Shown: positions 25,118-47,410 of the stretch, piece after piece
Position numbering within the stretch: the stretch's first letter is position 1
How the letters are laid out: every line of letters starts with the position of its first letter
Source of the DNA: Membranipora membranacea
Lineage: Eukaryota; Bryozoa; Gymnolaemata; Cheilostomatida; Membraniporidae
Assembly: GCA_914767715.1 (NCBI GenBank)
Contig: OU612071.1
Span: 1,798,001 to 1,862,000, forward strand
Length of the DNA: 64,000 bases
Direction: 5' to 3'
Notes under the pieces: model-generated
Seen by the model: the letters and a program-made list of their open reading frames with translations, nothing else
What the model was told of the DNA's origin: nothing
Databases searched by the model: none
Program-made: the position numbers and the translations under genes

Positions 25118-26156
25118 TATTCTGCTCCGTCAAGTAGGTGGTTCTTATGTCTGATACCTAAATAACATAAATTTCAATGATTATAATGAGCAGCATTCAA
25201 GAGTAAATATCAGTGCAGATTTCAAAGGTTCATCTACAGATGGTTGTTTTGAGTTGACCTGTGGAGTTCTCTTGTCATAATTCAGTGCCAGAAAGGAGGG
25301 AGAGAAGTTTTATATAAATCACAATCCAGTCATCCACACAAACCTTGATTTTGGATTGCGACTCAATACCAACTCCTGTTACTACACTATTCAGTCTTAT
25401 TACGTTACATACAATTAGGTCCTTACTGTATATTGCGGCATTTCACAAATCTATGGATGGAATTTGTTTATGACTGAGAAGAATTTTCCAAGATGAATGT
25501 GGCAAAGTTACATTGTTGTTGAAACTAAGGGTTTTAGAATAACTGATACAACTAAACTCAATACAATCAATAGAACAGGCTCACCTCAAATCACTGTTAC
25601 AAATGTCTGAGATCTCATCAGTACAGAGCTATCAGTGGATTGTCCTCTCTACTAGCCACCAGCCTTTTGGTTGACTCTACAAGTAATATAACTCTCATAT
25701 GAGCAATCTAGCTGTCTTCATGAGTATACATATTGCACAGTAAACAGTCATAAGTAGAGTCGCACTCCCAATCTTGCCTTCTTCGTTTTTTCTTTGCTTT
25801 TTAGGTTTGGTCTACTTTTGTTGTTGGTTTTTGGTGTTTTTGACTGGATCCATAATATGTAATAATAATATATAAATATGTAGTTGGTACAAAGGTATTA
25901 TATGATTCCTCGGTACGAAATATGATAGTAGTCTGTTTGCCGCTACGTGACTGACAGGTTTCTGGCTACTTCACGTTATTTATACCTTTGTATTCCAGCA
26001 GCATGTAAAAATGGGAGTTGCCTTCATTTATGTCTGGTGGGGCAACTCCAAAGTAATACATGATGCCTTTTAGAATCAGGGAGGGTGGGAGAGGTGGAGC
26101 TTGCGTCCAACAAAATTGACCAATCAGAGCTCAGTATTTGCTCTCAATCCATACTT
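25118..26156. other. Upstream region of the ankyrin gene
   Basis: No coding frame of note. It should hold the promoter and 5' UTR of the minus-strand gene; no clear TATA box or initiator could be singled out. Confidence 0.4.
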
Positions 26157-26238
26157 GCCAACCTGTACGCATAAAGCGTTTATGTGCGCTTATTTGACAC
26201 TAATTGAGTTTTAAACGCAAAACGCTAGCTGAACGCAT
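26157..26238. repeat. 82-bp dispersed repeat, copy 1
   Basis: Nearly identical to 47329-47410 (one difference seen). It contains nested GCGTTT/AAACGC inverted motifs and GCATAAA...TTTATGTGC. It directly abuts the minisatellite. Confidence 0.9.
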
Positions 26239-26249
26239 GGAAGCGCGAC

Positions 26250-26545
26250 AACTTGGCCCGAGCCAAACTTGGCCTGAGCCAAACTTGGCCCGAGCCAAAC
26301 TTGGTCCGAGCCAAACTTGGCCCGAGCCAAACTTGACCCGAGCCAAACTTGGCCCGAGCCAAACCTGGCCCGAGCCAAACTTGGCCCGGGCCAAACCTGG
26401 CCCGAGCCAAACTTGGCCCGGGCCAAACCTTGCCCGAGCCAAACTTGGCCCGAGCCAAACTTGGCCCGAGCCAAACTTGGCCCGAGCCAAACTTGGCCCA
26501 GGCCAAACTTGGCCCGAGCCAAACTTGGCCCGAGCCAAACTTGGC
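26250..26545. repeat. Minisatellite A: 16-bp units
   Basis: About 18 tandem units of CCCGAGCCAAACTTGG. Because 16 is not a multiple of three, every frame on both strands stays open and encodes similar repetitive peptides; these are not genes. Each unit contains TTGGC(N4)GCCAA, which can form a small hairpin. Confidence 0.95.
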
Positions 26546-27590
26546 CTCAATTAGTAAAACTTGGCCCCATGCAAGAAAACTTGGCCCCAAATATAAAACT
26601 TGGCCCCAATTAGTGAAACCTGGCCCCAAGTACTGGAACTTGGCCCCAATTAGTGAAACCTGGCCCCAAGTACTGGAACTTGGCCCCAAATAGTAAAACT
26701 TGGCCCCAAATATGAAACTTGGCCCCAAATATGAAACTTGGCCCCATATACTGAAATTTGGCCCCAATTAGTAAAACTTGGCCCAAATATGAAACTTGGC
26801 CCCAAATATGAAACTTGGCCCCATATACTGAAACATGGCCCCAAGTAGTAAAACTTGGCCCTCAGTACTGAAACTTGGCCCCAATTAGTAAAAATTGGCC
26901 CCGTGTAATGGAACTTGGCCCAAAGTAGTAAAACTTGGCCCTCAGTACTGAAACTTGGCCTCAATTAGTAAAAATTGGCCCCGTGCAATGGAACTTGGCC
27001 CCAAGTAGTAAAACTTGGCCCCAAATATAAAACTCGGCCCCAAGTAGTAAAACTTGGCCCCATATACTGAAACTTGGCCCCAAGTAGTAAAAATTGGCCC
27101 TCAGTACTGAAACTTGGCCTCAATTAGTAAAACTTGGCCCCATGCAATGAAACTTGGCCCCAAATATAAAACTCGGCCCCAAGTACTGAGACATGGCCCC
27201 AATTAGTAAAACTAGGCCCCAAATATAAAACTTGGCCCCATGTACTGAAACTTGGCCCCAATTAGTAAAACTTGGCCCCTCATATAAAACTTGGCCCCAT
27301 GGAATGAAACTTGGCCCCAATTAGTAAAGCTTGGCCCCGGTTAATAAAACTTGGCCCCAAATATGAAACTTGGCCCAATTAGTAAAACTAGGCCCCAAAT
27401 ATAAAACTTGGCCCCATGTACTAAAATTTGGCCCCAATTAGTAAAACTTGGCCCCTCATATAAAACTTGGCTCCACGGAATGAAACTTGGTCTCAATTAT
27501 GAAATCTTGGCCCCAAATATAAGACTTGGCCCCATGAAATGAAACTTGGCCCCAAATAGTTAAACTTGGCCCATAATATAAAACCTAGCC
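26546..27590. repeat. Minisatellite B: 18-21-bp units
   Basis: About 50 diverged units of the type AAACTTGGCCCCAAxTAxT continue directly from minisatellite A and share its AAACTTGGCCC core. The middle of the unit varies (AATATG, ATTAGTA, GTACTGA). Confidence 0.93.
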
Positions 27591-28222
27591 CAAGGTGTTG
27601 TACTTTCAATTAAAGAAGAACAAACATAACAATGTTTCATTACAATTTCACATCGAGACAACAAAATGTTATAATATAATAAATGAATATAATAAGCACT
27701 ATTTTAATATGTAATATCAAACTCTGTTTACAGGCCCGGGACTTCTTTGTTCCTCTTTCACAGTGAGAAGAGATGGAAACACTTTATAAAACCAGGATTC
27801 AACCAAAGTAAATTACGTTGACATCATATGTGCGCAGCAATTCCATTTTACATCTTGCATGAGATCAAGGAGACGTGACGGTAACTCCACCTGTTTGTGA
27901 GTGATAACTCTGGGTAATGAAGAATGGGCTGATCTTTTATATATCCGATATCAAAATATATGTTACCTCTCATGTTGTACGAAGACTGGGGAAATTGATC
28001 TGCAAATCTGTTATAATATGACAGTGCATTATCATCCACTATTTAGGCTGTATTTAGTGATTGGTCATCCAAATCTGATATATGCTCTACTGGATACTTA
28101 ATATCTTCCACTCCTGAGGTTGGATAGAGAACACTCAGTCCTGACAGACTATGAGCCAAATTGCTATGAATGACACATTGCAACAGTTATGGGGATCTGA
28201 CTAGCTATCAGCTTATCAGCTA

Positions 28223-28370
28223 TATGTGATACCATAGTATCTTCCAATCACATAGGGTTATATCCAGATTGATGGATGTAGATCCTCGGTAAGCCAATCT
28301 GCAATATGTGATACCGCAGTATCTTCTACACTCATAGGGTTGTACAGCGATTGCTGGGTGCCAATCTGTT
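28223..28370. repeat. Two-copy direct repeat, ~82-bp period
   Basis: TATGTGATACC(AT/GC)AGTATCTTC begins both units, at 28223 and 28305, with matching downstream sequence (CATAGGGTT, GCCAATCTG). Confidence 0.75.
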
Positions 28371-30337
28371 GAAGATTGTCTTGCTGCAAGTGGACTATAG
28401 TGTAGGAGTTTCTTGTACAAATGTTCACCTGCCCAGTTCCTATTATGAAAGACTGTTCTACAATATGACCTGGCGATGCAGCTAATTAGTCACGTCATTG
28501 ACACTATATTTTATATTTCTATTTCTATATTTATCTATATTTTCTATATTTATCTTGATAAAATGAGCTTCAATGTGGCATATATTAAGTATTACAGACA
28601 AAATCAACCTAAATAAATAGTCCATACAATGAGCTGCAATAAACATGAACATGCTAATTGTTTACGCATTTCTGGTCTGCTTACTGTATGTATATTTCTG
28701 GAGTTATCTGTGTTATGCTTATAAGAAGGCAATTCTGAATTCAAACAACAGCCACAGTATTTTGGTTTGTGATAATTGCATCATACAATTTTTTGCAAAC
28801 CTGTGAACTTGCCATGCCAACAAGGGTTACATATTGCTCATGTTTGCATGCTTACTCAGGAATGAAAGCTAAATGTGTTCTAACCAAGAGTTATTTACGG
28901 TTGATGGTGAAAGGCAAATTTTAAAAATAAATGATCATGATGGTGATTTGTAAACAACACAAGGAATGATGAAAGTGATTTGTAGCTTAAAGTTTGGCAT
29001 GTTTCATTTCACCTTACATTATAAATGGAAAGTTGGCTGGACTCCATATATTATAGTGCGTAGAGGCCTAACTCTGCAACCTAGCCACATCAGCATTTCA
29101 AGCCCTTTGAGAAATTTGTAGAGTATTATTATGTCAAAAAGTTATGTAAAGTTAAAACACACTCCATCTTGTTCTCACTGTCGACCTGGTACAGAAAATA
29201 AATGGAAAATATCAAACAGTTTATACGCGCAAAGTGTTGCTAGGGTTATCTGGTACCAAATGTTAACACCCAACTACTTGATGTAGTCAGTAGGATGCTT
29301 TCATTTTTCTTGTTATTCTATTCATTACTTGGGCAACATCCACTTCAGTAAACAAACTATAATTATTCTTACTGGATTATATGCTTTGATTGTGTTATTT
29401 GGAGTTTTCATCTCATCTCCGAAAATATGACTACTCCTTTGGCTATCAGTTTCTATGAAATTTGGCCTTATAAGCTCCCCTATAATATTTAGCTAATCCA
29501 TGAGAAAAAAAAACAGAAATTTGATAGTAGGGAATTAATCATTTGATAGATTATTGCATTTCTTATCAACAATTGACACACTGAGAAAGAGGAGGTGAAC
29601 TCTGGCTAGAGAGCAATATGGCAACCCTTAGGTGCCCTCGGAGAGGAATTAAGGTATGTATATTGAGACATTTCATTGTTAAAATAAGTACCAGGACTAT
29701 TCTGTGTCACAAAGATGTTGACATATGTAGTATATTATTCAATGACTATGTTTTTGTCAAACATTAATCTTATCGCAGCATTAGCATAATACAATATACT
29801 GAATCGTATTACAACATATAATATATTCGGAAAAATATATAAACATTTTCTGTCGTTCTTCTTTCTATAGCAGAAACTGGACACTCTGTGAGTTGAATAT
29901 ATTGATTATACTTGTCATTATTCCATATTTTGTGTTCTATTGTTTTAACTAGTGGCAAATAATTGTTTGAGGATCTAGTAAGAACATCTAGGTGCTTGAT
30001 CTTGAGCTCAGCAGAATAAATTCTTTTCGGTCTTCAAGGATAAGAGTTTCATATGAGAATAACACTTAACACTTACACATACATCTTTCAACGTAACCTT
30101 GAGGGAGAAGAGCATTAACAAGAAAAATATTCTCCATTTCGCAAAACTCCACAAGCAGTGTATTGGTGTTAGCTGCCAATAAGTCAAACTGAAACGAGCC
30201 TAACCTAGCTAAGATGCGATGTACATGATATCCTGTAGTGAGTAGAATGTGGAAAAGTAAAGTGATACCGTCTGGGAAAAATGATGTTAAGCGGTGAATT
30301 AACATATAGAAAATGTAAATCTACTAACTTTAATGAC

Positions 30338-30362
30338 ATATATATATATATATATATATATA
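30338..30362. repeat. (TA)n microsatellite
   Basis: About 12 TA units. Confidence 0.95.
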
Positions 30363-30517
30363 ATCGCATGTATAATTAATACCTTTGTACTCACTATCAG
30401 ATGTTAACCCTGTTCTCATCCCAACCATGGTGAATGTAGATTGTATCCTACTTCAATGTCACTCTTGGTCGCATTATATCGGTTATAAATTAACTAATAT
30501 TGGGTTTTGCATTTTAG

Positions 30518-32687
30518 ACAAGGACTGAGCAACAAATTTAACAACTGTTTCCTCAACTCTATTATTCAAGTCCTAAGGGAGACAAAAGCTATCAAGATGT
30601 GTTTGACTGAGGATCTTTGTAAAGGTGAGTTAACATATTATAACACCACATGTGTCAAGTTATCCTCACATTTTCGTGTGAGCTGATAACTCATAGTTTT
30701 TATATAAATGTGTGCGTACAATAAAAATTTAGACTTTTGAAAAAAGGAGAAAAATGCGTCAAGAAATAAATCCAGAGAGATAGTATCTGCGATTCTGTGG
30801 CAAAGCAATATACACATAGTTGGACCTACAAATGATACAACACAATTATTTTTGTTTACCCGTTAAATCACTTAGGATGGTTAATTTATTTTACACTATA
30901 CTATGTAAGGCGGCCGGTGAACCCAAATATAGGGATAAGACTGGTACATTACCCTCACTACCCATTTCATACTATTTTTCTAAACTCAGTTAATTTTTGA
31001 ATAAGTTACTCATATTTATTCTTTAGCATATGTCATCATAATAATAAGGGGAATTTATCATTTCTACAACATTGTACTCATCAATTCTATTTCAGATCTC
31101 GGTTCGCATTGTGCGTTGGCAGCTATTTATGGTGAATGGGAAATCATTATGCCTATGGTGAAAGGTAATGTGTTTTTTCAGTGCACTAGATAGATAAGAT
31201 AGACTGCAAACAGGTTTTGAAATTTTGTTACTTCAAACTTAGTTTATCTATAGCGCCTGTAATCTTGATCAGAAATTGTTTTTAAAACGAGCTTTTCAAG
31301 GAAAGTACTGTAAAATAACTTTTGGTTAACAACAACAGATGATCTTCAATGTGTTTTGTGTCTTTCAGAGTTGTTTCCAGTCATTGTAAATGGAAGACAG
31401 CAAGATGCTAGTGAGTTCTTTATCTTTTTAATGAATCATCTTAACGACCAGACATGCAACGGGTGAGTACTCTCAACATATTATTGGTTATCTAGAAAAA
31501 GATGTGGTGAAAACGAGGAATCTATGTGAAACAGACAGTCATAGCAGTAATAAAAAACTGCTACTCTCGACCACCTATTGTCTTGTCATATATTTATAGG
31601 GGTGATCACACAACAAGATTTGTATTCAAACTACCTTAACCCTCCAGCAAATAAACATTTTTCCAGTACAGTTCATCTAATGCTGATTGCTGCTGACAAA
31701 AATGATACTTTCTCATCCACTCTAGCCATTTATGGAGCGATACTGAGCAGATAAATATAATTTAACATTTCAGGCTCTAATTGTAAGGAGCGATATGTAA
31801 TCTCAGACAATTTTGAATCATCAGAATATGATAAAGGGTTGAGTCCCAAGTGCATTTACTACCTGCCGTGCCAAGTTAAGATTATAACTCACAAAAAACC
31901 CATTGCTTTTGCAGCTGTCCACTAAACACTACAGCAGAAAAGATATCAAGTTTTCTGAATTTACCAGACCATCTCGCAGTGACTTTCAACATCTGTGGCG
32001 CAAGTGAGAAAAAGAAGACCTTGATATCAATGCAGCAGAGGATTCAGATAACCGATGTATGTTATTCATTCAATTATGTTGAATATTATTCATAGACTAC
32101 ATTTATATACCAGGAATTTCATGAGATACGATCAAAAGTTCAATCTCTCCAAATCACATTTCAAATGAAGCACAATGCACATCTACGTACTGTGTAACTA
32201 GTTAATGAGCCATACACCGACACACTTATAGTTTCAGAGACATGGTCATAGCAGAGGTTACACTCTTTATGCAGCAGTTGTACACAAGGGAGCTGATCTG
32301 CATTCCGGGTTACTACTCTATAGTCAAGCATAAGGGCCAATGGTTTGAGATAAATGATGAGAAGGTAAAAATACACTGCACTTTAAGCGCAGTTTTCAGA
32401 TCTACGCTGCATGTTACATTTGGAATCAGACTGCACTTTATATATTAATACCCATTAATACCCATATATTAATACCCATTCAATGCATAAACAGCATAAA
32501 TAACCTGCTGGTGATATGATAATTCTGATATGCTAGCAAGGGAAAATCTTCAATCTCCTCATATAATTTTACCGAAGAGAACTTTGACTCAATATTATTT
32601 GTGTGTTTGCAGGTGTCAAAGATATCAGAGCTATCTCTGAAGCGCTCACATCCGTATATGCTCTTTTATGCACCAAACGACACACAG
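30518..32687 (+). pseudogene. USP (C19-type deubiquitinase) domain, six exons
   Basis: Exons: 30518-30624, 31096-31164, 31369-31462, 31915-32056, 32238-32364, 32613-32687. The Cys box reads GLSNKFNNCFLNSIIQVL, then the QQDASEFFIFL box, LPDHLAVTFNI, and the His-box region YTLYAAVVHKGADLHSG | YYSIVKHKGQWFEINDEKV, ending HPYMLFYAP. These are the ordered boxes of ubiquitin-specific proteases, which cleave ubiquitin from proteins. The usual CxxC fingers insert is absent, so the domain is short (about 205 residues). Exon 5 is 127 bases with both ends in phase 0, so it has one base too many, exactly where GHY with the catalytic His should be. Confidence 0.85.
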
Positions 32688-33086
32688 GTACCCAAAGATG
32701 ATTGTTAAAAAAATCTTTCTTTACTTTCGGCCGATATCGTGTTAATTGAATTAAAAAATGTACATGGATATGAAAAGCAATTCATTGTCGGTGTTAGTGG
32801 AATAACTGCCGCTTACACTTCTTATAAGTACACATCCAACACTGAGATAATGTGCATAAAAAATTCATTAGCTCACTTTATTGGTTGGTGAGCAAGAGCA
32901 TCAAAAATAAACGTTTAATTATGTGACACCTTTTTGCTTTACATTTTTTCTGTACATGACGTTTGAAATTGTTAATGAAAGAAGCCAGATAGATGAGATC
33001 TTGGTGCAAAACTGAAAAGTAATACAACAGTTACAATCATAGGATTTAAGTAACTCCATAGATCATAATTATTTGTAAATTTTTAG

Positions 33087-35520
33087 AACATTTCTTAAAG
33101 GTCGCACAGCTAGGAAGGCCACTAAGTGTTCAAACAGAAGAAATAGCAAGCAATCTAGAGCCCAAGAATGATAGACAAAGCTGACCATTTCTAGAGTCAC
33201 AGGGAGTAGTCTCAGGAAGGAAATCTGCCAAAGCACAAACTCAAACACAGCTTTCAAGAGAATCAGCACATCCTAAAGTCGATCATGCACAAGAAATGGG
33301 AATTATTGGAGACAGGCAAATACATCAGCCAAGCATAACAGAGACCAGCCAAAATCTCATGGTCGCCACCCCGCAACACAGCTCACAGGTCAAGGTTCCC
33401 AGAGATAAGACGTCCACAGCATAGAGACACTTGGATGAAACCATGGGCAACTGCTTTCAAGTTCTTGCTCCTCCGATTGAAGCAAAGAAACAGAAACATG
33501 ACAATCAAAACATTACAGCTGCAGAGGATGCTCAGAGGAAACAAGACAAGGTTTGGCCAACTAGCGTGGGAAAAAAACAACTTCCAACACTACCATCAGA
33601 GACAACTGGCAACAATAGCAGCATTAGCATGTTTTTAGAAGATGACGAAAGCCAGAGAGAGGATCAATATGTATTTTTTTAAAACAGTCTTGAAGACAGT
33701 CAGATTCATACAGATTCGGACAACCTGCTTCTACAGATTCAGAGAGCTGCAGGTAATTCACAAATATACCCAATGCCTTCACAGAGTGAATTTGCAAGGG
33801 AGAGCACTGAGGAGCATGCGCTCCTAGAATCAGGATACAGCCTATATAACAGGTCTCTGCCTACTACCTCAAGTAAACCTGCACCAGTAGAACCAGCAAA
33901 AAACCAGCCAATATCGTCACAGGGAACTATATTACAGAGAGTTGACCAAGTATCAGAAACTAATGACATGCATGCTCGGACTCATTCTGGGGATCCCAAG
34001 TCAGGCAACTTAGTGTTCAAATCAGCGCTGATATCACAGATATATGACAACAACATGATCAGGAGTGGCAGGGAGGGGCAGTCAATAGGAGTTGAAGATT
34101 ATCCTAGCTTAATCAATCAGATAGCCTCAGCCGGAAAGCTTGCAATCCAACACTGCAAACCAACAGTAAAGTCAGCCTTGAGCGTAATTTGCCGCCCATA
34201 CAAATATGCTGTACGATCTACAACAACAGCACTGTAAGCAAATTTTGAATCAATCATTGATGTTTCAATTTTAATACTTTTCAATGGACAAGGAAGTTAT
34301 GTTCATATTACAGTCAGGGGCGTAAATTCTAAAAAATTTCACTCACTGACTTTTCAGAGATGAGCATAATAATCGGGCGCAGCCCGATCCACACGCCGTG
34401 GCGGAAATTTTTGCATATCGGTAGCAAAATAGTGCAAGCAGAGAGGTATTTCAATAGCTCACTGAGCTGTTGGGTACTTTCAGGAAACAACTCAATAGCA
34501 GTAGAAGATTACGGTAAAAATGCTCCAGTTATAAAGCACCCATTTGAAAAAAAACTGACCTTGATGGGATTCGAACCCACAACAATCTTATTCCAGTGAT
34601 TATAAGGCAGACGCTCTACACACTGAGCTATTCAGCCTCTCACGGAAATCTGTGGGCCGTGAGTGCTAATATACGCCACTGATTACAGTAGCTGAGTGTC
34701 TAGTGATAAAATTAATTCTATAAATGTTCTATTATTTAGTAAATGCAAATACAATAATCCATACATAATGCATATGCATAGCTATGTACCTTAATTCAAC
34801 AGCAGTTCAGGATGTCCTAAATATTGTCATTGATGTTATGGAAGTTCAAGAAAATCTTACAAAATTTGAAAGTTATGCTTCTTTTTCACAAGGTATAGGA
34901 AAACCCATACACTCATACCAACTGGTACAATGACTGAAACACAGGATGACACCGGTAAGTAACCAATTAATTGATTTAATAGTAGGATGCAAAATTTACC
35001 ATTATTGAATTTTGATTCATACTTTGCAGAATCATTTTCTGTTGACGGTGAATAATATGTTTAACTGTACTGTTTACTGCCTCTTTGCCTACTAGCTGTT
35101 CATCTGAATATCTTATTCTGTCCTTTCAATAGGAAAAGAAAAGAAACACGAATTTGATAATCAACACGTCATTGCAGATCTTCATGATGCAAACACTGAT
35201 CTGGAAATTTGGCGTTATCAAGATTCATCACCCTACTCAGATTTACATGAAACAGACGAAACAATGTAAGTGCATAATCTGCTATTGATTGTATTGAAAT
35301 TTTAAAAGAAAATAAACAACCTTCAGAATAGGATCATTAGTTGTAATTATCCGCTTTGCTGTGAGATGCTTGTTCATCTAAATTAAGGATATTATTTTAT
35401 AGGTTAGCCGAGACCAACAGTTTCTCAGGATACAGCTCAGAAGCAACTGGAGATATTTCTCTTAGCAAACCGCAGTTACTCATGATTTGGTTATTCTATC
35501 CTCCTATATCCATCTTCATT
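33087..35520 (+). pseudogene. Long disordered spacer of the fusion, exons 7-10
   Basis: The main exon (about 33101-34233) is open for about 380 codons except for TGA 33181, TAG 33421 and TAA 33680. It is rich in Ser, Gln, Thr, Asn and Pro (KSAKAQTQTQLSRES, SLPTTSSKPAPVEPAKN) with no recognised domain. It joins in phase to 34893-34954 (YRKTHTLIPTG), 35133-35265 (HEFDNQHVIADLHDANTDL) and 35403-about 35490 (LAETNSFSGYSSEATGD). In-phase acceptors ending AAAG at 33100 or ACAG nearby would link it to the USP end. Consistent phase over four exons argues these were once coding. Confidence 0.65.
34500..34640 (-). repeat. tRNA-derived SINE, copy 1
   Basis: The minus strand reads like a tRNA: A box TAGCTCAGTGTGTAGAGC, anticodon-loop-like CTTATAATC and B box GGGTTCGAATCCC. 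The 3' end does not pair with GGCTGAA, so no acceptor stem forms and it is not a working tRNA gene. Flank ...GGAAAAAAAACTGACC is shared with copy 2. It sits in an intron of the fusion gene. Confidence 0.7.
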
Positions 35521-35668
35521 TTCAACCAAACTATGAGCATAAAATAAAGCAACATGAGCGGTTGTCACAGCACTTCTTTTTAGGGTCATTATATGAGTCA
35601 AAACTATGAAAGTTACTTGAAGAACTGAAGTCATCTGAACAACTGTATTGAAAATGTTTGCCATGTAG

Positions 35669-36303
35669 ATGCAGGACAGGATGGTTTTTCATTCGTATCA
35701 GCAAGAACTAAGGTGAAACAAGACCAATCTCCAAATATTCCTAAACACAAAGAACTGTCTGGTACGTTCAATGACTGGTGGAAGAAGGAAACTTTATTGT
35801 AATAAAAGATTAGACCATAACTGCAATGACCTCATCTTTTTGCACAGTTTTCAATAGATATTAAAACTTACATGATGTTTGGTTTTATTTATAACATTGA
35901 TATGTATCATTACATTATCGTAACTGCATATAAGTCAATGACATTGGCTCATTGATCAATTTATAACTTTCTACAAATAGGTTTGGCTGCAAAGACAGGT
36001 TCTTTTGTTGAAGCGACAAGTCACAGACAAATCAAAGCAACAACTAGACAACGTGGAGGTATTAAATTTGTTATTTTGTTTATCACAGATAAAAAAGCTC
36101 TTTGGATCACGGGCTCTGTCAAGTGAACAGTATGGGTAGACCTGTCTGATGAGCAAGTCAGTTTCTAAGACATGATATTGTTTTATGTAAATCTTTCAAT
36201 TTATTCTTTTTTCCAATATTGTCAATTGCACCAGAATCTCTTTCATAGAAAAAGAAAAAGATGCAATGCAACTATCGGAGGAGGCCATACTTGACGATGA
36301 TAG
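35669..36303 (+). pseudogene. Spacer exons 11-13 of the fusion
   Basis: Small exons at 35669-35761 (AGQDGFSFVSARTKVKQDQ), 35981-36058 (GLAAKTGSFVEATSHRQIKA) and 36235-36303 (ISFIEKEKDAMQLSEEAILD). The last is in the frame needed by the FLYWCH exon (GATAG|GCAATG) but is one base out of phase with the previous one, so a small indel or a missed splice choice is likely. Confidence 0.55.
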
Positions 36304-36459
36304 GTAAAAATGTTGAGAAACATCATATTCTAAATGTCTGTAACATATATTATAATCGCTGACAAGAAGATTCAACAAGGATTCAGCATCAGGATCTAGC
36401 TTTAGTAATACTTTAATACCTCATTTATAAGGCACCGGCCTTATAAGTGAAGCACCTTC

Positions 36460-36605
36460 CTTGGAAAATTTAAAAATGCTTCAGTTATGTGGCACCCCAC
36501 AGCTACAAGGCATCCCTTTGGAAAAAAAACTGACCTCGATCGGATCCAAACCCACAACATTGTGTTCACAAGGTAGGCGCTCTGTCTACTGAGCTATGCA
36601 GCTTT
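36460..36605 (-). repeat. tRNA-derived SINE, copy 2
   Basis: Minus strand: GCTGCATAGCTCAGTAGACAGAGC with a weakened B box (GGGTTTGGATCC). It shares the tail AATGCTTCAGTTAT and the A-run with the copy at 34500-34640. Confidence 0.65.
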
Positions 36606-36946
36606 CCTTTTCAAACCAACGTTTTGGTCTAAGTCAAATATAAAGATGCTTCAAATAGGTGCTATAGATGCTATAATATAGGCGCATATTATGCTCCACT
36701 CTCTAAGGCGCCTTCATCTATAAGGCACGGGCCTTATAGGTGAGGTATAGCGGTATTATTGTCACTATTCTCGGGTCAGAGCAGTTGCTCACAGGCAAAA
36801 CACAAAAGTGTTGCAGAATCTTCATACTTTGTCAGAGTGGAAAATTAATTATCCTTATCATAGCTTCATAAATACAAAAAATGATTAAACAGCTAAATCC
36901 TACGCACATACATACTACATAACATATATCATAATGCACATTTCAG

Positions 36947-37722
36947 GCAATGTATAGATATAGTTATCGATGGTCCGAGATTTGCGTTAGTGAGAGCAGC
37001 GACCCAGCGTAAAGGGGATTGCTTAATCGATCGACATCTAGGACATCGCTATGTTAAGAAGAACAGGGATTGTGAGGTACTTCAGCGACATCCAACTACC
37101 GAACATAAACATATTTTCCTGATTTTGGAATAAGCTGCCAATAAAATGCAACTGACAAATTTAATAATAAAACCATGAATTGTACTGAAATTGTCTGTTG
37201 GCTTGACATGACTACTGTATACTTTCCTGATCTCTTGATAGGAAGTGGTAGTTTCATGGCGTTGTGCGAGGTATGGCAAGCCAACAAAGTGTAAAGCAAT
37301 GGTGAAAGAGTCGAATGGAGCATTCAATATAAGTAGAGGGGATCACAATCATCCTGCCTATAGGAAACCACTAGAAGGTGCTCGCATCGCTAGAGAGGTA
37401 TGGTAGTTGACACTATAGCCAAACTATAAAGTTTGTCTGCTCTCTGACAATAATAATCTATGAATGTTACAGATTACTTGCATTGAAACAGATGTGTTTA
37501 TCTGATAGTGTGATGTTTGTTTATTGATTCTACCAGGCAGAAAAGTTAGTAAATGAGGATACGTTTGCCCCGACATCAACAATTGTTGATAGGGCTGTTA
37601 AGAACCTTTATGAAGAAACTGCAGTTATACCCCAAGCCGCAAATCGCAGAAACTTGCGCCGTTTGATACAAAGGAGAAGGGCCAACACAGTACAGTCACA
37701 GCCAGCCAACTTAAGTTTTGAG
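36947..37722 (+). pseudogene. FLYWCH zinc finger and following helix block
   Basis: Exon 36947-37076 encodes PRFALVRAATQRKGDCLIDR and GHRYVKKNRDCE. Exon 37242-37397 encodes VSWRCARYGKPTKCKAM and ISRGDHNHP. Together they show the FLYWCH pattern: F...., G..Y, W.C, C.A and H.H, with two Cys and two His to bind zinc. Exon 37537-37722 (AEKLVNEDTFAPTSTIVDRA ... RLIQRRRA) is the conserved block that usually sits between FLYWCH and the MULE catalytic domain. FLYWCH fingers bind DNA and are common at the N-terminus of metazoan MULE transposases. These three exons carry no stop. Confidence 0.88.
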
Positions 37723-38059
37723 GTATATGGCTCATCAAAAGAATTGGTATAGAATTATGCATGTTACACTTACTCAGGATGAAATGTGTTAGTCAATAGA
37801 GGTGTCATATTATATGCATAGTTGCTCTTGCTTTGCAGAGAGACTGTTTTGAAATTGAATTGTTTACAAAACTTGAGCATTGCTGTGTCTGTAGGTCTTA
37901 ACAAGCTGATCAACAATGTTTGAAAATCCTTTTCCCAACGATTTATAACAGGCGGCTCACAAACCACAAGTTTATGTTCAACTTGGTTTCCATCAACATT
38001 GAAAAGATTTATATCTAATTCTGCACAGTTACTCATTTGACAATGTTTTATCTTTAAGA

Positions 38060-40362
38060 TGCCTAACTCCCCCGGATTCCTGGTTGGAGATGTGAGAGGG
38101 CCATCAGGGGGCAGAGCACTCATTTTTGCCACGAATAGGCAGCTCAGACTTCTTACAAACTCGGAAATATGGTAGTTTGAGTGTTACTGCAAAGTAACAA
38201 TGCAGATATATTTTATAGTCAGATCTCATAATACGGAACGTTATAATACCGAAATACCGATGGTGTATCTTGCTATGCAAATCAACCAGACCGAGGGCAG
38301 GAAGCACCAAAGTTTGAAATGACAATAATTGAAGGAACCATTGCCACCGAACCTGAGTCTAGGAATTCAAGTGGTTCACTGTTGTCTGTAGAGGAGAATC
38401 ACTACATTGTATGGGATGCGTGGGCCTTGGTAATTTAGAAAGTCATCCTGTCTCAACAAACAGCATCTATCGATGCAGCCGGCCAATTATTGAATTTGCA
38501 TGTTTGCAGGTCTTCTTCCTTTTGTCACCTCTTTTCATAATATTGTTGTATTTTCAATATATTATTTTCTTTCTTCAGCATGACTAATTTCAATTGTAGG
38601 GGTATAGATGGAACCTTCAAGACAGTTGTCAAACCTTTCCAACAACTTCTGACAATAAACTGCTTTGTTAGAACAGCCAATGGGGGAAAGCAACTACCCT
38701 CCGTAAATGTCCTTATGTCTTCAAAGCAGCAGGCAGACTATTTGATGGTTAGATATCCTGATTAATTAGCGACAGGTCACCCACTGATCAGACTATCTCG
38801 TTTAAGATCACGCCATTATTAATTGCAAACCAGTTAATATGTTAAAGTTGAACTAAAATTATTCAGAAATTTCTCCTGTGCAGGTCGTCAAGTGGTTACC
38901 TGATCCTATTCTTAACTACTTTCCTCGGATTTGGCAATTGAAGAGCCTCACTTTAATGACCATGCTAATTATTCTCTATAGCAGGATTGATCGCTTGCGT
39001 GTAAGACACTTTGGTCTGTTGCTGACTTTCAGATTTAATGTAGAGGAAGTAGGATTTTTGTGCAATTGTTGACATTTTTTTCCTTTAACGATTAACCTCT
39101 CCAAACTAGTAGCTTGGTATCAAATAATTCTTGACATCTTCTAATATAATTACTATACTATTCCACTGTATTTATTTGAGACTGTGTGTTTAAATTCGGG
39201 TTTGGTGTATTTTAAAGAATGCCTGACTGCTTTCCAATTATATTTTCCATTATGCCTTCTTGTAGGTGTTCAATGAGTTAAAGAAAATCGCCAATCTCAA
39301 TGTTCAAACCATCATCATCGATTTTGAGAAAGGTACACAATTAAATTGTTCGTGAAAGAATATCATAACACACCTGACTGAGCTGTAAATCTTCTCATTT
39401 TTCTGTTTAGGGATCTGGACTGCTGCTTCAGCAGCGTTTCAAGGAGTACATATAGTCGGATGTAATTTCCATTTCCAGAAATGCATCTGGCGCAGGGTGC
39501 AAAAGCTTGGTAAGAAGTCAACGTTATGCATAAATAACTATGACTATGATTAATAATAATATTATGATTATAAATATGCAAAAACTTGATAGTGCTTGGT
39601 TAATGTTACAGGTCTCGCATCAGGCTATCGCCATCACCACAACACTCGTCATGTTTGTGGGTTTCTGTGGGGGCTCTCCTACCTACCAGTCCACTTGATT
39701 CAGGAAGCTTATCGCTATGTGGTCGCGGAGAACAACGAGCCTCACTTTAGGCAGTTGTTTGAGTAATTTGAGATTACATGGCTCAATGGAAGATTTGAGC
39801 CAAAATTCTGGAGTGTGTATCGACAGGCGATAAGGACAAATAACTCTCTGGAAGGTAACTGTCATTCAATTTCACAATTCGTTTAAGGTTGTTCATATTT
39901 GAACAAAAACCTTGTAAAGCAATCTTCACTTGATCAGAAAGGTTCATCACTCAGTATGCAATGAGCAACAACCAACATTTTGTTTCTGTGTTACAAAAAT
40001 CTATGCTTTAAATCATAAAGTTAAAGCTATAGTAGCGCCTTTTGGTATATGACATATTGCTTAGGTAGTAGAAGAATTGCTAATAGCATGACAATGAAAA
40101 TTTACTTGAATGAAGCTCATCGGTAAAACTGAATTCATAGGCTATCTAAAATATTGCCACAAGTCCTATTGGAGGTATCTGGTTAATCAAGAGACAGTGC
40201 TCTTGATTAGCCCAAGACATCCAATATGATACCAAATATTGGGAGGCGTTACTATAGCTTGAAAGTAAATAATAATCACAGGCTTCTTTAAAACAGGAGC
40301 TATGTGTGCCTATTGAATAATATTGTTTCCGTTTTCAGGCTGGCATAACAAGTTTAATCGCC
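38060..40362 (+). pseudogene. MULE transposase catalytic domain, broken
   Basis: Exon ending 38171 reads GGRALIFATNRQLRLLTNSE. Exon 38600-38747 has the first catalytic Asp (GIDGTFKTV, FQQLLTINC). Exon 39266-39332 has the second (TIIIDFEKG). Exon 39411-39509 has the GCNFHFQKCIWRRVQ zinc-like motif, and 39612-39854 contains LSYLPVHLI, ITWLNGRFEPKFWS and RTNNSLEG with the third acidic residue. Exon 40339-40362 has GWHNKFNR. This is the DDE domain of Mutator-like transposases (MULE family). A TAA at 39764 replaces the Tyr expected before FEITW. The stretch 38878-39072 between the first two core exons looks like intron. Confidence 0.87.
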
Positions 40363-40986
40363 AGGTGAGAGTCGATAAGCCCCCAGGGAGATATAAACCC
40401 TCTTAAAGGGGAGGCAATGTTATATATGCCATGCCTTAACGATGACAGTTAATTAGTCTGCTAACAGACATCACAGGATGTGATGTCAGATTCTTTTTGT
40501 TCTTTTATAATGACCACAATGCAGTGGCTATTTCCTTTCTATGTAAACCATGCTAACAGTAAGATGCCTCTGCTAGATGCTCCCAATAAAATATCGTAAA
40601 ACATCCCCAACACACAAACTTAATACTCGCCTTAATGGGGAGTTAGAAATTCAAACCCCTGCCATTACAGCCACTAGGTCGAAGGAAAAATTTTCCCCAA
40701 AGAGAGCCAACAACTGTAGAGGGGAGAGGTCAATGTTAACCACAGGTGTTAACCTGTGGAATTTACACCTACTGGGGGAGGAGAGGGCGGCTCCTTCTGC
40801 TTTGCGTGGGAGGTTGGCGTCCTCGCTGTGGGGGTGTGGTTAGCTTCTTGTTGAGTAGCCTTCGTTTTCCCGATAATCGGATGGTTGCCATACTAGTCCT
40901 GGACTAATCTGACCATGCCGCTGCCTTATTTTATTTCACTATTTTAGTCCTTTGATTTTAATTACAATAAATTGTTGCAAAAACCA
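40361..40986 (+). mobile_element. 3' end of a Ty3/gypsy element with LTR, inserted in the MULE exon
   Basis: Directly after GWHNKFNR the frame becomes VRVDKPPGRYKPS and stops at 40403-40405, as gypsy polyproteins do. A polypurine tract (AAAGGGGAGGCAA) follows, then an LTR starting TGTTATATATGCC at 40418. The LTR holds AATAAA near 40585 and 40966 and probably ends ...AAAACCA near 40986. The rest of the element is missing, so the fragment arrived by deletion or ectopic joining. Confidence 0.7.
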
Positions 40987-41159
40987 AAAAAATGACTGGA
41001 TGAGCTCATGTTGATGTTCCAGGTAAGAGGGACACGTGCGATTATTTACAGCTTCGCGAAGGAAAACTGTTTGTTTAGTGGTCTACGTTCCGCCCCTTTT
41101 ATAGTATGCGGCTTATAATTACACGCTACAACGCTTCTCGCAGCAGATTATACTAGATA

Positions 41160-41931
41160 AGCCTGTGCCAGTTATAAAGCAGTTATCAACAGGTGCAAAA
41201 TCAATCAAATACCTAGCCCGGATTATGTTATATCTGGTCATGCTTAAAACTAAACATCCCCTATATTTTGAAACACAGGATGGTACAGGAAATATTGAAC
41301 AATTTGTACAGATGGTAATGGGACTGGCGCTACTTCCACCTGAGGGAGTGGTTCCAGCACTAGGTTGGCTAAGAGAAATGGCAAAGTCAGCCCCTGCCGA
41401 AGAATTGTTGTTGTATTATGAATATGTTTGGAGATGGAAGCCAACAGAGGTTTCAGTAAAGATACGTGCCAATAATGACTTGGAAGGTAGGGAAAATCCA
41501 AGGATCATCAAAGGGAATGCAACGCATGTTTACAATGCTTGTTGCGTATTCATCCACAATGTTTTTATGTCTTTCCAAAAAAATGATTCGAGTTGTTTAT
41601 TTTCTTACTGAACACATTTCAGATCAACACAATAATAGTATTTAGCATCTTTTCTAACAATGCTGAAGTAATTGAGGACCTGACAATCTGCCTGTGTGTT
41701 GGTATTACTAATTTTGTGATTCACTGCCAATCTTCATATTGCCATTTGGTTGTATTATCCCTCCACAGGCTACCACAAACGGCTGAATGACCTAACCAAA
41801 GCAAAATCAATCACATGGAAGCTTATGGCAAGGCTTGCTTTAGAGGCAAAGGAGGCCATGAAACAGGTGCAGCTGGTGAAGGTGGGAGAGGCCACCAGGA
41901 TAAGGAATAAACGATTTCTGAAAATAAATAG
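41160..41931 (+). pseudogene. Second MULE transposase, C-terminal exons only
   Basis: Exon about 41160-41486 encodes FVQMVMGLALLPPEGVVPAL, LLLYYEYVWRWKP and RANNDLEG. Exon 41769-41931 encodes GYHKRLNDLTKAKSITWKL and a helical tail RIRNKRFLKIN. The RxNN.LEG|xHxxLN join uses the same intron position and phase as in the copy at 39854/40339, so the two are paralogues with a shared intron. The sequences are otherwise well diverged. No FLYWCH or catalytic Asp exons accompany this copy, so it is a fragment or its other exons lie elsewhere. Confidence 0.8.
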
Positions 41932-42151
41932 GTCAATTTTATCAGCCTTTGATTAGTTTAATCGTACGAAAAACCTCAAAGACCTACTAGGGTTCATTGC
42001 AATCAGGCTGATGAGATAGGCATATCTGCAATTGCGATAGAAGAAGCAGAATATGATTAGTGAAACCTCACTGCATGTTACACTGGTGTAAACTACATCG
42101 AGAAATGTACTATGAAAACAAACAAATTATATGCGCGTAAGTTAAACATCC

Positions 42152-43609: not shown

Positions 43610-45313
43610 GTGGATAGCTGGACATTTAAAATTTTATTTTACATGCTTTATTATTATTATTATTAGTTCTTCCCATCTCATCATTATTAGTAAATGTTCT
43701 AATTTTAACTCATACAAGCCATCTATGTAATTTTACATTGAAAATTTCCACAGTTAGTACCAATGGTTGGTATCACATGACCTACTATGCTTTTTTAACT
43801 AAACACAGTGGAATGAGTTCCTCCCAGTTAGTATTTTGCAGCTGAAGAACAAATAAGGTAATGATCGTCCAAATCCCTCCCCCCCCTCGATTTGTCTTGC
43901 AAGATAAATAGGGTTACTACATTGTCTATATCCCTTCCCTTCCCTGCCATTTGTCTGGCCAGATAAATAAGGCTACCATCTTTGTCCATAGCTCCACCCC
44001 CCCCCCCCCCCAAGGCCAGCCCCGAAGTCAGGCAGTGATATTTCCAGATGAGATAGAGTCGGCGTACTTGTTACCTTTCCCTCAGATAGAGTCGGCATAC
44101 TCGGTATATTCACAGGCAGACAGAGTCGGCATACTTGATACATTTCCACTTAGATAGAGTTGGCGTAATCGTGTTAGAGAGTCGGCGTACTCAGCATAAA
44201 TAGGCAAGGTACGTGGTTGCAGTGGCGCGTATCGCCGCCTTAGGGTAACCCCCCCCCCCTAAAATCCTCTACATGGTCCCCCCTTTGAATCCATCTGCCA
44301 GCCAAAGATGCAATTTAGTCAATTAATTCAACGATTCGAACCAACAACCGATGTACAAATGGAGGGCGAATGAGTAAAGAGAAACGCAGGGGTCATCAAC
44401 CTTTGTTCAATCAATAAAAAGTAGCAAGACAACATGGAACTGGGACTTGAATTTCTAAAAGATCAAAATATATATGCGTTGTCTAGGGAGACACAGCCTA
44501 TGAATCATCAGAAACTTTTTGTATTTATTTCCTGTTACTAGAATATCAGGCCATTGAACAACTTCACAAATGTTGTCAAATGCTTTAGATGGCTACTATC
44601 ATAAATATGACACCGCACTCTCCAAAGAACAGGTGATTGACACCCACTAGTTCTCAAAGACTTCTTTGTAGAGGATTTTGATGGGGTTACCCTAAGGCGG
44701 CGATACCCGCCACTGCAACCACGCACATTGCCTATTTATACTGAGTACGCCGACTCTCTAAAATGAGTACGGCGACTCTATCTGCCTGGAAATATACCGA
44801 GTACGGCGACTCTATCTGCCTGTGAATATACCGAGTACGACGACTCTAACGGAGGGGGGGTGACGAGTACGACGACTCTAACTGAAGGGGAAGGGGTAAC
44901 GAGTACGACGACTCTATCTTAGGGGGGGGGTAACGAGTACGACAATTATATCTGAGGTGGGGGTAACGAGTACGACAATTATATCTGAGGGGGGGGGGGG
45001 GGGGGTAACCAGTTCGTCGACTTTAACTGAGGGGGTGAGCTGCTACAAGTTTAAAAATATGAGGTGTTGCTTCTTAGGCTGCTGGATACTAACTGAAACT
45101 TATTCCACTGGTGTTTGGTTATAAAAGCATAGTGGGTCATGTGATACTATATGTGGAAATTTTCCATAGAAAATTCCACAGATGGCTTGTAATAGTTAAA
45201 AACGGTTTAAACTGGTTAAAATAAGAAAAGTTACTAAAATGATGACATGGGCAGATAACTAGTAATAATAAGAAAGCATGTAAAATGAAGTTTTAAATGT
45301 CCAGCTGTGGTGG
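43610..45313. mobile_element. 1.7-kb foldback (long inverted repeat) element
   Basis: Left arm 43610-44273 and right arm 44667-45313 are inverted copies, for example GTATCACATGACC / GGGTCATGTGATAC and TAGGGTAACCCC / GGGGTTACCCTA. The loop is about 390 bases. The inner arms are minisatellites with AGAGTCGGCGTAC / GTACGCCGACTCT units. Runs of C (43996-44011) and G (44989-45005) sit at mirrored positions. No gene seen, so it is non-autonomous. Confidence 0.85.
44740..45030. repeat. Minisatellite in the right arm of the foldback
   Basis: About eight units around GAGTACGACGACTCTATCTG with G-rich spacers of varying length. Confidence 0.8.
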
Positions 45314-47328
45314 AAAATCCCCCACAACTTGACAATCTTTTAATCATCAGTAAAAGATAGTAAAGTACAATATATAATGGTTTGGGCTAAGAATTTAGGA
45401 GGCGTCTGAATTAGAGATATGAGTATTTGTGAAAGTCATAATGCTTTATCTTTGCCAGTCTGGTATTTGGTTTGTGCTCACAATATACTGATATACTGCA
45501 ATATGAGGTCATGCTTCACCTGCCAATCTCCGCTGTTTGTCTATCCTGTTACAGGCAAAATATTTCATAGGCATCACCACCAGCCTTAGCATAGTCAGAA
45601 TTCTCCACTACATTTTTACACAACACTCTCAGGGCTTGATTCTGCGTAAACGTGTATTTGCCCCTCTTTGTCTGCCATTTCGACAGTATTTGTCAAAGTG
45701 TGCTTATTTTTATTTCTTTATTTTGGGGATGATTATTACTAGAGATAACATTGATAGCATATTCAGATAAAGGGCATATAGAGTAGGAGAAAGGCAAAAC
45801 AAACAAATTAAAGTGTAGACAAGTGCAGATGTATAATAAAAATCATCAAAGGGACAGTCTGAGGTTATAGAGAAGACAGCCCAATGGTGAAGCTCAAAGG
45901 TCAAATACAAGACACTCCAGCAAGGACGCACCGGATGGATTCCCTCAAAAGCTGTACTAATCGCAGCACCCAGACAGGGAGCCAGGCTCGTGGGCCCACA
46001 AAGTCTGATATTCTATCATCACAAACAACAAAAACCACATTCCCAGTTGAAATGACGCTCAATGGTTGAGACACGTGAAACATTCAAAAGATCATCTTGA
46101 GCGAGTTTCATTGTTGTTATGAGCCGTGGTTTAGTGATGTCCAACAAAATCCATTTAGCAAGGCGATCGCATTGATTGTGGATTTTTGACCTTGAATTCC
46201 AACACAAAAATTAACATTATAGAATTGGAATAGGAGTCTTTGCCTAACATAACATGATGCACCCTATAATTCCTTCCAGGTTTATCTGTTCCACTTAGAG
46301 AAAGTGATCGGTTGCCTGCACAGCAGATTCCCAGAAAATGATGTAAGAGTTTAAGACACAGCTAAATGTTTTGGTTGCCTGAATCTTATAGCTATCAAAA
46401 AAAGGATTTGAATGTTGCTTCAAATGTATTTTTTTCTTTGCAGTATTTGTTGTCTTATATTATCCAATTCTTTTTATATTATCTATTTTGACCATGTATT
46501 CCTTGTATTCCAATGGGAATGGATGAGGATCAGCGTAATAAATATGAGGTTTTCGTGGAGAGTTGTCTTTTCATGTCATAAGAGAGGACAAATTATGATC
46601 AACTTTGGTGTAGTGCATGATAAAAAAACACAGGGAAGACTGGTTGCTATCTTGCCAAATGAATGCATCTTAAGAACATTAAATTGCATGTTCCGGATTC
46701 ACAGACAGCTCAAAAATCAAAGTGCTGCTTTTGACCATCAACATATTTCCGCTGAGAATCTCACGGCCAGCACAGCATATAATGTTTCTGGTTTCATCAA
46801 TAATTATGCTGTTTTGTACATTGTTGAGCAGTTATTTGGTCCCGATTAGTAAAATGATAAGTGAATGAGATTTGGTGAGCAATGAATTCAATGCAGCCAT
46901 CTGCTAGTGCCACACATAGAAAACTGGCTCACAAAATGTCAGCATCGACAGAGTATGGAAGATAATATCCCTGAAAGACAGACTGAGCCATAGATTTCAA
47001 AATATTCTGGTCAGATCCAAACAGCCGTATGCTATATTTACCAAATCCAGTTAGTTCACTGGAGCATTGACCAATGACCTTAGGATGGACTGAACTGATA
47101 AGCAGGAAGTATCTTATCGTATTCCATAAGCAGGTATAAGTTATCAACCTGAGGTAAAGGGATAATGTTAAATACTACAGAGTACTTTTACCCTCAACTC
47201 TTGAAAGTCAGAAATTGCTGGAAAGGCTGGAAGTCTCTTACTTTTACATCAGCTTGAGAAGCCAAGTCTCCGGCCACTAATTCACAGCAGTTAATTTGTT
47301 TAAGTGTCAGCAGTATGATAACATTCAT
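45314..47328. other. Stretch without a recognised gene; one longer frame
   Basis: A plus-strand frame of about 145 codons (46412-46849, ending IVEQLFGPD) has no family I recognise and starts with a hydrophobic, T-rich stretch that looks like chance translation. An exon-like piece near 46280 (VYLFHLEKVIGCLHSRF) follows a CCAG acceptor. Either may be a decayed transposon fragment. Confidence 0.3.
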
Positions 47329-47410
47329 GCCAACTTGTACGCATAAAGCGTTTATGTGCGCTTATTTGACACTAATTGAGTTTTAAACGCAAAACGCTAG
47401 CTGAACGCAT
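47329..47410. repeat. 82-bp dispersed repeat, copy 2
   Basis: Partner of 26157-26238; same orientation, one difference. Here it is followed by ordinary sequence and not by the minisatellite. Confidence 0.9.

Follow-up and report, generated by a model that had tools for sequence, protein, structure and literature searches.

A USP-class deubiquitinase gene probably carried beside the FLYWCH-MULE transposase gene in a foldback Mutator-like element of the bryozoan Membranipora membranacea

The stretch of DNA analysed here (the window) is 64,000 nt long and comes from the bryozoan Membranipora membranacea; it covers C7:1798001-1862000 within a genome of 339,339,785 bases in 18 contigs. On its forward strand, exons for a ubiquitin-specific protease (USP), a long low-complexity spacer and exons for a FLYWCH transposase of the Mutator-like element (MULE) type follow each other. 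As judged from the sequence and its copies elsewhere in the genome, the window very probably holds a broken copy of a ∼16-kb foldback MULE of animal type with minisatellite terminal inverted repeats, in which a gene for a USP-class deubiquitinase with a long tail is followed by the gene for the FLYWCH-MULE transposase. The 5′ end and the protease part of the window copy are as follows.

26239..27593, + strand: 5′ terminal inverted repeat, a minisatellite of 16-20 bp units with AACTTGGCCC, start (G)GAAGCGCGACAACTTGGCCCGAGCC
30518..30624, + strand: USP exon U1, Cys box (NNCFLN)
31096..31164, + strand: USP exon U2
31369..31462, + strand: USP exon U3 (GRQQDASEF)
31624..31626: site of a deletion in the window copy, which lacks 2.3-2.8 kb (exons U3b and U3c included) that four sister copies have
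31915..32056, + strand: USP exon U5
32238..32364, + strand: USP exon U6, with the His and Asp box; the window copy has lost two bases of the His codon
32613..32687, + strand: USP exon U7, in which the catalytic domain ends

A preliminary description of this DNA, made from the letters, had read USP, FLYWCH and MULE boxes on the + strand, and the Pfam profile search bears this out, with all three families above the cut-offs used (23.9 bits for UCH, 23.6 for FLYWCH and 27.6 for MULE). The joined USP exons (30518-32687, + strand) match UCH with 96.3 bits, from profile position 2 to the last, 254. The profile matches of the protease part are to UCH and UCH_1 only, with no Ulp1 peptidase domain among them.

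Nine sister copies (A to I) were set beside the window copy (W), ten copies in all. In the sisters the protease exons run U1-U2-U3-U3b-U3c-U5-U6-U7 with GT-AG sites and consistent phases. U1-U3 were detected in the retrieved stretches of four of the nine (C, D, G and I), and in three of these (D, G and I) all eight exons are open; D and I retain both Cys and His, G has Gln in place of His, and C has an altered U1 and a shortened U7. The catalytic-His box reads HSGHYY in eight sisters and HSGQYY in one, and U6 of the window is 2 nt short at this very place. A whole UCH domain with its Cys, His and Asp/Asn boxes is found in two sister copies (D and I) and not in the window copy, with its damaged His codon and two lost exons. 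Joined, the exons of one sister score 121 bits over the full UCH profile, and the solved structures nearest to such joined exons of one sister are USP21, USP36 and USP2. A further candidate exon, U4 (31774-31875), was rejected as intronic by comparison with the sister copies.

Downstream of the spacer, the window copy carries the following exons of the transposase gene.

35133..35265, + strand: exon S2, N-terminal extension of the transposase
35403..35478, + strand: exon S3 (3′ edge tentative)
35669..35761, + strand: exon S4
35981..36058, + strand: exon S5
36249..36303, + strand: exon S6, with an in-frame ATG inside; the first exon remaining in most MULE-only elements read
36947..37076, + strand: exon F1, first half of FLYWCH
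37242..37397, + strand: exon F2, second half of FLYWCH (C..C..H.H retained)
37537..37722, + strand: exon M1
38056..38171, + strand: exon M1b (5′ edge approximate)
38600..38747, + strand: exon M2, first catalytic Asp (DGTFK)
39266..39332, + strand: exon M3, second catalytic Asp (IIIDFE)
39411..39509, + strand: exon M4 (GCNFHFQKCIW)
39612..39854, + strand: exon M5 (RTNNSLEG); its TAA is private to the window, with a tyrosine codon in all nine sisters
40339..40385, + strand: exon M6, broken at 40385; elsewhere it reaches the C-terminal stop and, where read, the 3′ inverted repeat

The exons joined within 36947-40364 (+ strand) match FLYWCH with 25.4 bits and MULE (PF10551) with 45.6 bits, which places the DDE transposase domain of Mutator-like elements in this gene. 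The Asp of DGT and the Asp of DFE are invariant in a nine-row alignment. In the table of sister exons F2 and M1, and in some sisters also M1b or M2, lie outside the retrieved stretches; F2, M1 and M2 of all nine sisters were seen separately. Just downstream of the break, at 41105-41500 and 41720-41953 (+ strand), there is a second, diverged MULE C-terminal piece (RANNDLEG, YHKRLND), which gives weak but ordered profile matches (hmm 300-352, E 0.7; hmm 385-443, E 0.05) and no Pfam MULE match.

The window copy is broken: U3b and U3c are lost, the His codon is damaged, the spacer and the MULE part (M5) contain stops, and the 3′ part is missing. The element is also larger than that description had it, with a 5′ end at ∼26239 and a 3′ part broken at 40385. 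Inverted repeats sought around the narrower span first described gave nothing above shuffled controls, because the 3′ end of the window copy is lost. The window itself thus shows the 5′ end only, and the terminal inverted repeats of the element are seen through other copies. The element begins with GAATCCGCGACAACTTGGCCC or a close variant and closes with its reverse complement, both of which lead into arrays of repeat units; a like 5′ start stands in different flanks at loci L033, L035-L037, L039-L042 and L044, and in L009, L045 and L047 the element finishes with the reverse complement of that start. With such repeat-filled inverted ends of variable length, the element is of the foldback (Tm1-like) kind. 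A MULE-only copy at C7:27.22 Mb has a 9-bp duplication, ATCAATTTC, on either side. A USP-carrying copy (C7:5133499-5149512; 16,014 bp) has both ends and an 8-bp duplication, GTTGTCGC, on either side. Target duplications of 8-10 bp were therefore found in two of the three copies of which both sides were read.

Other repeats lie close by. An 89-bp repeat is present at 26150-26238 and 47322-47410 with 97% identity, and its first copy abuts the 5′ end of the element; a separate inverted-repeat element with 33-34 bp minisatellites in its arms occupies 43616-45306.

Queried against its own genome, the MULE part gave at least 138 matches (110 of 337 candidates were scored). At 20 MULE paralogue loci, 10 kb of DNA 5′ of the FLYWCH exon was retrieved and inspected. 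USP exons, spacer, small exons and FLYWCH are collinear on one strand at nine of these loci, and there is no USP match at the other 11. The spacer has 18 matches, spread over 14 loci, all of which have USP matches next to them; at ten of the 14 a FLYWCH exon follows downstream. The USP block also occurs at C7:5.13 Mb, C6:29.29 Mb and C1:39.68 Mb. Identities in the C1 copy are 75-96% for the USP exons, 87-91% for the spacer, which is free of stops in three pieces, and 65-86% for the 3′ part of the MULE; only this 3′ part of the transposase gene was found there, and no FLYWCH exon. In copies at several chromosomal places the USP block has the 5′ inverted repeat on one side and the transposase on the other, and so is inside one mobile unit. 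An animal MULE with a USP-type deubiquitinase, which the preliminary description had put forward, is thus upheld to the extent that USP, spacer and MULE sit within one element with inverted-repeat ends.

The USP-less loci are informative as well. One of the 11, on C3, has the same element end, can be followed through 29903 and then jumps to 35379, and is therefore an internal-deletion form of the long element. Among the matches listed, the 5′ minisatellite is joined straight to window position 36041-36099 at eight USP-less loci; one more jumps from 27942 to 36441, and one has no visible minisatellite. These USP-less forms look like deletion forms of the long element, or sisters to it.

Several observations in this paragraph and the next weigh against the element as we describe it. 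The 16,014-bp copy lacks U1-U3, and since the GTTGTCGC word also occurs in the terminal motif, its 8-bp duplication is weaker evidence than the 9-bp one. In the C6 copy, read on both sides, no target duplication was found, and its 5′ end is damaged. Of the ten long copies, eight appear to form a single duplicated insertion cluster on C7, where the break at 40385 is common to eight copies: the window and copy A have at least 2.5 kb upstream in common (including an ankyrin gene) as well as ∼3.9 kb beyond the 3′ break, 0.7 kb of the upstream flank recurs in copy E, and for five only the shared break is seen. A host USP gene that merely stood beside a MULE insertion, both then spread by segmental duplication, would leave such shared flanks and such a shared break. 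We consider this very improbable, given that the flanks retrieved for the copy at C7:5.13 Mb and for the one on C6 do not match the window, that a further copy is on C1 (this by location only), and that the USP block is within the inverted repeats. Furthermore, the other USP-like matches in the genome, taken as host USPs, begin only at E 2.8e-4, and therefore no recent donor gene is seen.

The association is not without exceptions either. No FLYWCH exon (from the list of 34 F1 loci) accompanies the USP-spacer loci at C7 0.33, 0.44 and 0.76 Mb, all three cut at spacer residue 365 as one truncated block, and no spacer match goes with the USP fragments at C7:0.83 Mb (U1-U3) and C7:1.71 Mb (U1-U2). 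The preliminary description had named a constant separation of USP and FLYWCH-MULE, or one without the other at conserved loci, as what would refute it; the two are together at the ten loci given above, yet often apart, for 24 of the 34 F1 loci have no nearby USP match (11 of the 24 are those retrieved upstream). It had also proposed a search for intact paralogues with USP and MULE exons together; nine collinear loci came to light, but none of the copies read here is intact over its whole length. The USP shows no clear sign of constraint: in the comparison of exon with intron divergence p was 0.03-0.18 in six pairs and 0.31-0.93 in 21 (the pairs are not independent), and codon counts in six pairs gave 0 synonymous and 0-4 nonsynonymous changes. 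The codon-count ratios of the other parts, resting on few changes, were 0.84-1.54 for the spacer, 0.13-0.52 for the extension and 0.14-0.98 for the MULE. Pack-MULEs are known to copy pieces of host genes. A host USP might likewise have been caught once by the MULE and copied since without use; both the lack of clear constraint and the USP-less majority among F1 loci agree with passive cargo of this kind, and as regards the role of the USP we treat it as a serious rival, if a rather doubtful one. It is at odds with the retention of eight exons with Cys and His in two copies, and with the open spacer of the diverged C1 copy. As some of the alternatives concern the use or the mode of expression of the USP and not its presence inside the element, our estimates of their likelihood overlap.

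How the protease and the transposase are joined depends on the DNA between them, in which two features matter.

33101..34236, + strand: spacer exon S1, low-complexity tail; three stops in the window copy, the final TAA common to all ten copies
34833..34892, + strand: S1b, with an ATG, the putative opening exon of the long elements' transposase gene; five sisters have one base more here than the window

In its own frame the spacer at 33101-34233 has three stops, where the two other frames have 19 and 23, and none of 5000 simulated sequences had three or fewer stops in any frame; it is a decayed coding exon. Its internal stops vary among the copies, and the terminal CTG-TAA, into which the frame runs when continued past 34233, is identical in ten of ten. 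Behind this stop, S1b is present in nine copies. Traced upstream, its frame reaches an ATG in five of them (D, F, G, H and I), and a stop stands five codons ahead of that ATG; W, A, C and E differ by one base, and there the frame stays open further upstream; copy B has no S1b. A shared TAA and, in five of nine copies, an ATG of its own behind a stop thus speak for two genes within a single element; USP and transposase are most likely neighbouring genes rather than one fused protein, as far as can be read from the genomic copies. On these same grounds the single USP-MULE protein of the preliminary description is not supported in the form given there. Its continuous exon reading is borne out along S4-S5-S6-F1-F2-M1, where the phases are consistent, but not for the spacer, whose frame runs into the common TAA.

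A fused polypeptide could still be made if the USP, part of the spacer, the N-terminal extension, FLYWCH and MULE were spliced together, so that the deubiquitinase would act in cis on its own transposase. At 33752, inside the spacer, there is a strong donor (6.1; true donors score 3.6-6.2), which is in phase with S2 (35133) in eight of ten copies, but the S2 acceptor is weak, scoring 1.8 in nine copies and not located by its motif in copy I (true acceptors score 4.6-10.1), and the spacer 3′ of 33752 is open in most copies up to the common TAA. In-phase joins through S1b are possible in W, A, C and E, for example from donor 33550 (4.0) to acceptor 34811 (3.8); in D, F, G, H and I they would have to use acceptors scoring only 0.3-0.7, and B offers none. 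The absence of an in-frame ATG from F1, with consistent phases from S4 to F1, also suits a reading that enters from upstream. An exon-chain model across the spacer gave no proof, as control stretches, some with real genes, scored equally high, and MULE-only elements manage without such a fusion. We regard the fusion as unlikely. Less likely still is that a USP-FLYWCH-MULE polyprotein, spliced from within the spacer and made alongside free USP, is the long, ancestral MULE form, of which the MULE-only elements would be internal-deletion derivatives; were it so, the transposase would bring its own deubiquitinase to the ends of the element.

Within the region between the spacer and S1b there is a tRNA-derived SINE (short interspersed element) at 34314..34681 (− strand; tRNA match at 34556-34637), which is absent from the C6 copy. 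The stretches 34526-34636, which has the tRNA match (− strand), and 36500-36602 are related and 73% identical. Further out, the open frame of 824 aa at 22655-25129 (− strand) consists of near-identical 39-aa ankyrin-type units, and its DNA is also found in the flank of copy A; another of 956 aa at 12219-15089 (− strand) has a DUF294-type nucleotidyltransferase match and TPR repeats.

The MULE part, searched against a protein database among proteins of ∼620-1970 aa, had no match among 2559 candidates at 1e-5; with that part alone as query there were eight matches among 1642 candidates, all eight FLYWCH-MULE proteins (21-32% identity in the alignment) and none with a USP. The USP part gave 11 matches among 322 candidates, all of them USPs and none with a MULE. 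Absence from the protein database is weak evidence, because the search demands shared 5-residue words and restricts length. Among viral contigs, 50 pattern matches included no relative.

Kaonashi-type MULEs of plants bear an Ulp1-like domain. A USP-bearing MULE was not found in the open-licence literature. The preliminary description had spoken of an independent animal case, and this is tenable for the class of the protease only: Ulp1 and OTU domains are known from Ginger and Mutator elements (PMC2836005, PMC6446971), animal MULEs among them. The Ulp1-bearing Mutators of hydra, lancelet and plants likewise combine a MULE with a protease of the ubiquitin-like pathways, but theirs is a SUMO protease, where the present one is a USP (peptidase C19) (PMC2836005). 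Hydra MuDR-6_HM, listed with an ‘Ovarian Tumour Gene’, is an animal MULE with a deubiquitinase-class domain, OTU rather than USP (PMC6446971). A USP-class domain does occur with a transposase in Trichomonas XP_001314237.1 (transposase_11 with Peptidase C19), a protist protein with a transposase of another family, for which the entry in that paper names no MULE or FLYWCH (PMC2836005). In structure, the element resembles Tm1 of Meloidogyne, a FLYWCH-MULE foldback element with composite inverted ends of variable length and mostly 9-bp duplications; Tm1 differs in its 496-aa transposase, and no protease gene is described in the passages on the element (PMC3169594). Rehavkus is MULE-like too, with a minisatellite near the 3′ end and 9-bp duplications, but it has a PHD finger, and the passage concerned describes the minisatellite before the 3′ inverted repeat only (PMC6446971).

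A transposon-borne deubiquitinase is also found in Helitrons, with VTD and OTU, which represent another class of transposon and other classes of deubiquitinase; the Helitron-borne VTD enzymes of zebrafish cleave ubiquitin in vitro, and the role proposed for them is to spare proteins required for transposition from degradation (PMC9741609). By analogy, the USP of the present element may do a job like that of VTD and similar enzymes. It would be produced as a separate protein from its own spliced gene and could strip ubiquitin from the transposase, from factors where excision or insertion takes place, or from chromatin, with a longer-lived transposase or less silencing of the element as the result.

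Several transposon classes have already taken up Ulp1, OTU and VTD proteases, a range that a USP carried by an animal MULE would widen by one more class of deubiquitinase. Since USP-carrying and USP-less elements with related transposases are present in one genome, any benefit of the protease to transposition can be sought by comparing the two forms.

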